A stretch of DNA of 64,000 bases from Lentisphaeria bacterium (GTDB taxonomy: Bacteria; Verrucomicrobiota; Lentisphaeria; Victivallales; Victivallaceae). Positions 24,291-25,307 of this stretch are shown one piece after another (positions within the stretch are counted from its first letter, which is position 1; each line of letters begins with the position of its first letter). The translations under genes and the position numbers were made by a program. The notes beneath the pieces are model-generated. The model searched no databases, was not told the origin of the DNA, and saw only the letters and a list, made by a program, of their open reading frames with translations. Location: contig JAFVRD010000013.1 in the NCBI GenBank assembly GCA_017504435.1, positions 1 to 64,000 on the forward strand. Direction: 5' to 3'.

Positions 24291-24334
24291 AAAATTAAAA
24301 AGCCCTGCCGGAAATCTTCGCTTCCGGCAGGGCT
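24291..24334 (-). terminator. ilv attenuator 2 intrinsic terminator
   Basis: On the minus strand AGCCCTGCCGGAA pairs perfectly over 13 bp with TTCCGGCAGGGCT around an 8-base loop, followed by TTTTAATTTT. It starts 20 bases after the stop of leader peptide 2 and ends about 30 bases before the ilvB start. The ascending-arm segment CCCTGCCGG (24324-24332) can instead pair with CCGGCACGG (24359-24367) at the end of leader 2, eight of nine positions matching, forming an antiterminator. Confidence 0.85.
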
Positions 24335-24353
24335 GAAACTGACTTGCTTGATT

Positions 24354-24497
24354 CTATACCGTGCCGGGGGGCATAATAATAATTACGCTGATAATAATGG
24401 TAATAATAATGACGGCGGCAACGGATACGACAACAGAACCGGACACAGAAAGTGCCGGGACAAAATTGATGTTGCTGTTAAAAAGTGTCGTATTCAT
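24354..24497 (-). CDS. ilv leader peptide 2 (47 aa, Ile/Val-rich)
   Basis: The small frame starts ATG-AAT-ACG at 24497 and ends TAG at 24354. It encodes 10 Ile and 9 Val in 47 residues, with the cluster VIIITIIISVIIIMPPGTV at the end, reminiscent of the enterobacterial IlvL pattern VVVIIIPPCG. Codons are mainly ATT. A ribosome stalled on the Ile run would leave the last codons (CCGGCACGG) free to pair with the terminator arm; a ribosome at the stop would cover them. There is no strong Shine-Dalgarno. A short TTG frame after the GGAGA of terminator 1 ends ATGA exactly at this start, so coupling is possible. Translation is inferred from composition and layout. Confidence 0.8.
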   Translation of the reverse strand: MNTTLFNSNINFVPALSVSGSVVVSVAAVIIITIIISVIIIMPPGTV

Positions 24498-24512
24498 TTT
24501 CGTTTTCGTTTC

Positions 24513-24551
24513 AAAAAAAAATCTCCCTGCGGCTGATCACCGAAGAGAGAT
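24513..24551 (-). terminator. ilv attenuator 1 intrinsic terminator
   Basis: On the minus strand ATCTCTC pairs with GGGAGAT (one G-U), with an inner CGG/CCG stem around TGATCAG, followed by nine T. It starts about 24 bases after the stop of leader peptide 1. The segment ATCAGCCG (24530-24537) is perfectly complementary over 8 bp to CGGCTGAT (24587-24594) in the last codons of leader 1, giving a competing antiterminator. Confidence 0.8.
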
Positions 24552-24581
24552 ATTATAAATCATTCAAGTTTATCTCAACAA
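24552..24581 (-). promoter_or_regulatory. Possible internal promoter between the two ilv attenuators
   Basis: A perfect TATAAT (24552-24557) lies 18 bases from TTGTTG (24576-24581), which overlaps the leader 1 stop codon. Transcripts from here would start inside terminator 1 and meet only attenuator 2. The -35 box matches four of six consensus positions, so this is a candidate only. Confidence 0.35.
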
Positions 24582-24664
24582 CAGCAATCAGCCGTACCGA
24601 CGCCGATAATTACGACGACGGCAATAATAATAACGCTGATAATGTTGTTGAAAAATTTGTTCAT
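24575..24664 (-). CDS. ilv leader peptide 1 (29 aa, Ile/Val-rich)
   Basis: The frame starts at ATG 24664 with GGGGA 5 bases upstream and ends TGA at 24575. It encodes 7 Ile and 5 Val but no Leu in 29 residues: NNIISVIIIAVVVIIGVGTA then D and three Cys. The last codons contain CGGCTGAT, which can pair with the loop and descending arm of the following terminator. The layout is that of a ribosome-mediated attenuator sensing charged tRNA-Ile and tRNA-Val. It shares an ATTATCAGCGT-ATTATTATT core with leader 2, which suggests a tandem duplication. The start lies about 25 bases downstream of the predicted transcription start. Confidence 0.82.
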   Translation of the reverse strand: MNKFFNNIISVIIIAVVVIIGVGTADCCC

Positions 24665-24695
24665 TTTTTCCCCGTTTCATTTCAAAACACCTTTT

Positions 24696-24723
24696 AATAT
24701 ACCATTGTTTTTTTTACTGTCAA
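24696..24723 (-). promoter_or_regulatory. Main promoter of the ilv leader/ilvBNCDA operon
   Basis: On the minus strand a perfect TTGACA (24718-24723) is separated by 16 bases from TATATT (24696-24701), with a TG one base before the -10 box. The predicted start near 24689 leaves a short 5' UTR of about 25 bases before leader peptide 1. Confidence 0.8.
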
Positions 24724-24761: not shown

Positions 24762-24790
24762 TTGACTTGCAAAAAAAACGGTGCTACATT
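24762..24790 (+). promoter_or_regulatory. Promoter of the orphan plus-strand leader
   Basis: TTGACT (24762-24767), a 17-base spacer and TACATT (24785-24790). It is divergent from the ilv promoter, about 40 bases away across an A/G-rich stretch. The predicted start near 24797 lies about 30 bases before the small frame. Confidence 0.7.
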
Positions 24791-24827
24791 AAAGAATACA
24801 CGCAAGAAAAAAGTGCGGAAAACAAAA

Positions 24828-24908
24828 ATGAAAAACATTATTATCAACCTTATTACGCTTGACATTCTTCTGCTTATTCAGGAGAGTGCTGTTCCGTCGT
24901 GCGGTTGA
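24828..24908 (+). CDS. Orphan leader peptide (26 aa, Ile/Leu-rich)
   Basis: The frame is ATG at 24828 to TGA at 24908, with GCGGAA about 9 bases upstream. It encodes 6 Ile and 5 Leu in 26 residues (MKNIIINLITLDILLLI, then polar residues ending SCG). GTGCTGTTCCG (24886-24896), in the codons just before the stop, can pair over 11 positions (three G-U) with CGGAGCAGTGC (24932-24942) in the ascending arm and loop of the following terminator. That is the same design as in the two ilv attenuators. No sense gene follows: the next genes are convergent (rpsS end). It may be an attenuator left behind by a rearrangement, a regulatory small RNA, or a small membrane peptide. Confidence 0.65.
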   Translation: MKNIIINLITLDILLLIQESAVPSCG

Positions 24909-24927
24909 TAGAATCAAAAGCAAACCG

Positions 24928-24962
24928 ATCCCGGAGCAGTGCATGTTCCGGGATTTTTTTAT
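24928..24962 (+). terminator. Terminator of the orphan leader
   Basis: ATCCCGGA pairs with TCCGGGAT around an 11-base loop, followed by seven T. It starts 20 bases after the leader stop codon. An alternative pairing of its left arm with the leader coding sequence would prevent its formation. Confidence 0.8.
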
Positions 24963-24975
24963 ATTACTTCAGCGT

Positions 24976-25015
24976 AAAAAAACTCCCGTCTACCAATTTG
25001 ATAAACGGGAGTTTT
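24976..25015 (-). terminator. Terminator of the rpsS-ending ribosomal operon
   Basis: On the minus strand AAACTCCCGT/ACGGGAGTTT form a 10-bp stem followed by seven T, about 25 bases after the rpsS stop. On the plus strand it is followed by TTTTATT, so it may also stop transcripts coming from the orphan leader. Confidence 0.85.
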
Positions 25016-25040: not shown

Positions 25041-25307
25041 TTATTTACCGGAAACAACACCGTGGACTTTGAATACACGGGTAGGCACAAATTCGCCGAG
25101 CTTATGGCCGACCATGTTCTCAGTAACGAAAACCGGAACAAAGGTTTTGCCATTATGCACATTGAACGTATGTCCGACAAAATCCGGAATAATCAGAGAA
25201 CGCCGGGACCAGGTTTTGATCGGGGTCTTGTTGGCAGCGTTCATCTTTTCGACTTTGTCGATAAGATACTGATCCACAAAAGGACCTTTTTTGATGGATC
25301 TGGGCAT
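25041..25307 (-). CDS. rpsS: Ribosomal protein uS19
   Basis: An 88-residue S19, a head-domain protein of the small subunit: [15 protein letters not shown] at the start, [20 protein letters not shown], and [11 protein letters not shown]. Its ATG overlaps the rplB stop by one base (TAATG). Unusually, this is the last gene: the normal next members of the S10 cluster (rplV, rpsC, rplP and so on) are absent and a terminator follows. Confidence 0.98.

Follow-up and report, generated by a model that had tools for sequence, protein, structure and literature searches.

An attenuator without an operon: probable relic of a lost leucine operon in a Lentisphaeria genome

A 64,000-nt stretch of Lentisphaeria DNA (the window, to which all coordinates refer; its genome is called G000 here) carries, at positions 24762-24962 of the plus strand, a leucine attenuator with no leucine genes behind it. 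Comparison with relatives makes it highly probable that this is the orphaned first attenuator of a lost leuA-leuC-leuD-leuB operon, an ordinary relic that is probably decaying. The element is ordinary in kind, as a leucine attenuator, and unusual in its orphaned state. All genomes compared are metagenome assemblies; that of the window comprises 2.26 Mb in 61 contigs and is 95.5% complete.

In enterobacteria, leuABCD is preceded by leuL, which encodes a leader peptide with a run of leucine residues, and alternative antiterminator and terminator structures lie before leuA. According to the classical attenuation model, a stalled ribosome frees the antiterminator arm, while a ribosome that reads on to the stop codon masks this arm and lets the terminator form. 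The parts of such an element are present in the window (Table 1). A first-pass annotation of the same DNA had proposed a promoter, a 26-codon Ile/Leu-rich frame and an intrinsic terminator on the plus strand, divergent from the ilv promoter, together with an 11-position antiterminator pairing of the coding end with a terminator arm and, downstream, only the convergent end of a ribosomal operon. The first three were confirmed, coordinates included, as were the pairing and the downstream arrangement (rpsS, then rplB, on the minus strand).

Table 1. Features in and around the probable orphan attenuator, in window coordinates
Feature	Position	Strand	Details
Divergent ilv promoter and two tandem leader/terminator units	24301..24723	-	MNKFFNNIISVIIIAVVVIIGVGTADCCC and a longer Val/Ile-rich frame
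Promoter-like site of the presumed former leu operon	24762..24790	+	TTGACT (24762-24767), 17-nt spacer, TACATT (24785-24790)
Leader peptide L1	24829..24909	+	MKNIIINLITLDILLLIQESAVPSCG; ATG at 24829; 26 codons and stop
Long-range helix closing the leader hairpin (segments 1:2)	24844..24910	+	ATCAACC (24844-24850) with GGTTGAT (24904-24910)
Putative regulatory codon run	24868..24879	+	CTT CTG CTT ATT (Leu Leu Leu Ile), codons 14-17
Antiterminator arm (segment 2)	24887..24897	+	GTGCTGTTCCG, pairs with CGGAGCAGTGC at 24933-24943
Attenuator terminator and T run	24927..24959	+	stem 24927-24955, 12 pairs, 5-nt loop
23-nt stub fitting the left end of an IS200-family element	24960..24982	+	TATATTACTTCAGCGTAAAAAAA, directly after the first terminator
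Hairpin ending the rpsS transcript	24979..25013	.	directly follows the stub; also folds in the plus direction, -15.5 kcal/mol
rpsS	25041-25307	-	end of the S10 operon, neighbour of the leader; then rplB

The promoter-like site matches the consensus at 9 of 12 positions and has a TG before its -10 box; it aligns with the leu promoter of the relative G015 (TTGACT...TATATT), and similar boxes occur in most relatives, the window's TACATT being one departure from the TATATT usual among them. The terminator stretch has a folding energy of -20.3 kcal/mol. A terminator scan returned four sites, against 2.0 +/- 1.5 in shuffled sequences, and an Rfam scan of the 64-kb window found tRNAs only. Single consensus matches of this kind are each weak, and the case for the element rests on the conservation of its sequence across genomes. 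The 26-codon frame of L1 is intact in all seven genomes aligned (G000, G015, G020, G047, G001, G046 and G012), and L1 also stands before leuA in G102. A complete 12-bp terminator is found in six of the seven, with all 12 pairs kept. The conserved parts of L1 include the leucine codon run and the pairing arms; the run reads CTT CTG CTT CTG (Leu4) in five other aligned genomes, and the window is the only one of the six genomes of alignment A2 to have Leu-Leu-Leu-Ile instead.

Named relatives picked up through ilvB are Lentisphaeria assemblies, and the labels of several give the gut of sheep, goat or deer as their source. In G015 and G020 the homologous promoter, L1 and terminator lie back to back with the same ilv operon and are followed by a second Leu-rich leader (L2), a second terminator and leuA-leuC-leuD-leuB. 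The L2 of G015, translated by eye, is longer than L1 (MNKQIFNSITTVNTAIILAGALLAALILLLIQLLIIDPGGIRRW), and the LeuA, LeuC, LeuD and LeuB of this genome all score above the curated NCBIfam cut-offs. L1, L2 and the leu genes are also found in G046 and G102. Since the same promoter, leader and terminator precede L2 and leuACDB in relatives, the window's element corresponds to the first of two tandem leu attenuators. Leucine genes follow the attenuator region in G015, G020, G046 and G102; in the window the next gene is rpsS, on the other strand. Having no leu genes behind it, the window's attenuator is classed as a relic of a leucine attenuator rather than a working member. The first-pass annotation had looked to synteny in related genomes for the gene that follows the leader, and the answer from G015 and G020 is leuACDB behind a second leader; relatives lacking the frame and the hairpin would have counted against its reading, and several carry both. 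Its suggestion of a small membrane peptide is so far unsupported, the same peptide heading the leu operon in relatives. A membrane peptide or type I toxin would be expected to be conserved independently of the attenuator structure, and the invariant parts here include the codon run and the pairing arms.

By sequence, the window's element has a leader frame with leucine codons, an intrinsic terminator and an antiterminator that excludes it. The antiterminator comprises 11 pairs in the window, three of them G-U, and 9-10 pairs elsewhere among the six genomes whose terminator is complete; in these six, the arm begins 7-10 nt 3' of the leucine run. The helix closing the leader hairpin keeps 7 of 7 pairs in six genomes and was also seen in single-sequence folds. 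Across these six genomes, 100% of the terminator pairs, 88% of the antiterminator pairs and 100% of the leader-closing pairs are kept. Compensatory changes were sought in the terminator and antiterminator pairs of the six sequences, and no pair had changed on both sides; the two structures therefore rest on conservation and geometry. Folding with a 13-nt ribosome cover placed after the fourth leucine codon yielded the terminator, a fold of little weight because this footprint already covers most of the arm; the geometry indicates that stalling at earlier leucine codons would leave the arm free.

From this anatomy and from enterobacterial leu attenuation, we infer how the element, including its transcription and ribosome stalling, would have worked while the operon existed. 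Transcription from a start near 24797 would have produced the Leu-rich leader. When charged Leu-tRNA was scarce, the ribosome would have stalled at codons 14-17, leaving 24887-24897 unpaired; this freed segment would have paired with the 5' arm of the terminator, and transcription would have run on into the second leader and terminator and then into leuACDB. When leucine was sufficient, a ribosome at the stop codon would have covered the arm, with termination at 24927-24959. In this lineage everything past the first terminator would since have gone, the junction being joined to the rpsS terminator, and the element, which has probably lost its function, would today yield no more than a terminated transcript some 160 nt long that controls no gene.

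The junction itself is marked by the stub that directly follows the terminator. Its pattern, TATATTRCTTCAGCGTAAAAAAA (with R at one position), has only three matches in the G000 genome, and the two others (contigs C5 and C49) each form the start of a longer left end of IS200 type. A full copy of the element in G043 encodes an IS200/IS605 transposase that scores above the NF033573 cut-off; the window's stub itself is only 23 nt. Similar IS200-type stubs, ending at an A run, lie just behind terminator-like hairpins in many congeners (L225-L235), where they are possibly a recurrent deletion scar. We infer that an IS200-type element inserted behind a terminator and that most of it was subsequently deleted, perhaps at the A run; the element may have caused the leu loss or arrived afterwards. 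On the other side of the junction, the congeners compared have a terminator-like hairpin after rpsS, beyond which the sequence is different in nearly every one. These downstream regions showed no recognisable rplV, so rpsS may be the last gene before a split in the S10 operon.

Whether the operon is gone from the genome or only from this place was addressed through its enzymes. Among the 34 genomes of the genus searched, close LeuA orthologues were found only in G015, G020 and G046, and these three were also the only ones in which the leuC family model exceeded its cut-off. G000 has a distant LeuA relative of 490 aa (contig C61, L242 427-1899) with 28-31% identity, below every curated cut-off, and its best LeuC-like match is an aconitase. 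Matches of about 30% identity, like this distant LeuA relative, occur in many congeners. With no close LeuA and no LeuC above the cut-off, loss of the leu operon in the lineage of the window is most likely, although the operon could still lie in the 4.5% of the genome missing from the assembly. It is unlikely that the operon moved elsewhere in the genome under the second attenuator alone and left L1 behind: G102 (RGIG4167), whose ilvB is the closest to the window's (dS 0.13), carries L1, L2 and the leu operon on a different contig (C56) and a second copy of the ilv leader/leu L1 region on C170, so that copying or relocation may happen within the group, yet neither the LeuA and LeuC searches nor the family model found an orthologue in G000. 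The earlier proposal of a remnant of a moved Ile/Leu operon thus holds as to the remnant, relatives keeping leuACDB at this place, and not as to the move, since the operon looks lost. That the rpsS junction is an assembly error, with the leu operon really following L1, is very unlikely. The junction is known from a single metagenome assembly, and its stub resembles an IS end repeated in the genome; however, a one-base (A/G) difference from the C5 and C49 copies limits the exact match to about 18 bases, no LeuA or LeuC orthologue turned up anywhere in the assembly, and the neighbours of rpsS vary among congeners too, so that joins at this place are to be expected.

The persistence of the leader raises the question of whether it still does something. 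The first-pass annotation had envisaged a small RNA linking branched-chain amino acids to ribosomal proteins, and read-through antisense RNA could in principle tie leucine supply to rpsS/rplB expression. Orientation and proximity fit such a coupling, which we consider extremely unlikely: read-through from the leader would run into a second barrier, the rpsS hairpin, which can form on the plus strand too, the window's leader was found downstream of rpsS in none of the congeners compared, and the two sides meet at the IS-like stub, that is, at a rearrangement. Synteny, the second hairpin and the apparent relaxation of the leader leave the small-RNA proposal unsupported. Retention of the terminated leader RNA, or of its peptide, for an acquired job in trans is quite unlikely, and the same holds for the specific form in which, after leu loss, it would serve as a leucine-responsive trans regulator in a leucine-requiring bacterium. 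Frame, terminator and promoter-like boxes do persist without leuA at the locus in G000, G047 and G001, and there is a precedent in the rnTrpL RNA and peTrpL peptide of Sinorhizobium meliloti, for which trans functions have been shown with the operon still present (PMC7298713). The window's element would likewise give a short RNA that ends at the terminator and encodes nothing but a leader peptide; it has no operon, and any function for it is hypothetical. Against a role in trans, some congeners lack the leader or its terminator arm, and private changes have accumulated in the window's leader about as fast as at the third positions of ilvB (6/81 versus 29/543), the codon run and -10 box having drifted as well. 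These counts come from five genomes and cover the 81-nt leader frame and the third positions of ilvB. In the leader frame there are six private changes in the window, 0 and 2 in the leu-bearing pair (G015 and G020) and 0 and 3 in the other orphans (G047 and G001); at ilvB third positions the counts are 29 in G000, 17 in G015, 46 in G020, 28 in G047 and 31 in G001. No private change was found in the terminator of any genome compared. The private changes, the weaker -10 box and the replacement of Leu4 by Leu3-Ile fit relaxed constraint on the window's leader, a weak signal drawn from few sites; residual function would also explain its intact frame and terminator.

The reading of the element as a relic of a lost operon is joined by signs of erosion at the same locus elsewhere in the genus. 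G001 keeps the promoter, L1, the terminator and the start of L2, with L2 fused to the last 21 matched codons of leuB, which on its sequence is a direct scar of the deletion of most of the operon. The break lies inside L2 in G047 and inside the first terminator in G012; only the end of L2 is left in G043, and only the promoter to about the start of the leader in G048. Because the break points differ between genomes, the erosion looks recurrent. G046 presents the mirror case, with leu intact and ilv leaders present, and ilvB absent beside them. A leu operon with orphaned ilv leaders was observed in G046:C104 (L240) and in G102:C56 (L247), adjoined in both by a gene that, judged by eye, resembles a LysR-type regulator. 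Tandem leader/terminator units of the ilv operon are seen in most congeners that have this operon. On contig C170 of RGIG4167 (L252 4101-12439 and 13036-14327), an operon whose first gene is that of DAHP synthase, with a Phe/Tyr-rich leader and a terminator, is transcribed away from ilv; at the end of this contig lie a leu L1 and another, incomplete ilvB with its leaders.

Compared with the enterobacterial leuL-leuABCD system, the Lentisphaeria leader shares in its layout the leucine run, the alternative hairpins and the position before leuA; unlike there, two attenuators stand in series, the gene order is leuA-C-D-B, and in the window the structural genes are missing. A leucine-rich attenuator peptide is also reported to control branched-chain amino-acid genes in Staphylococcus aureus (PMC5794164). 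It shares the Leu-rich leader; it belongs to another phylum, while here divergent ilv and leu operons have separate leaders. The tandem attenuators of Salmonella mgtCBR are described as two short open reading frames in one leader that are anticipated to affect stem-loops (PMC3641672); other genes are concerned there, whereas the Lentisphaeria case has two complete leader and terminator units in series and would sense an amino acid. A literature search made mostly without subscription papers found no description of attenuators in Lentisphaerae and nothing on relic leaders after operon loss.

Leader-peptide attenuators that still work are a familiar class, and relics left behind by a lost operon can hardly be recognised unless relatives are at hand. 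In the genus compared here, a single locus shows a graded series, from a complete pair of divergent ilv and leu operons, each with tandem attenuators, through a deletion scar and several orphan leaders with differing breaks, to the mirror case in which leu was kept and ilvB lost. Such a series makes it possible to measure how quickly a ribosome-sensing RNA decays after losing the genes it controlled, and suggests that these animal-gut Lentisphaeria have lost leucine synthesis repeatedly.
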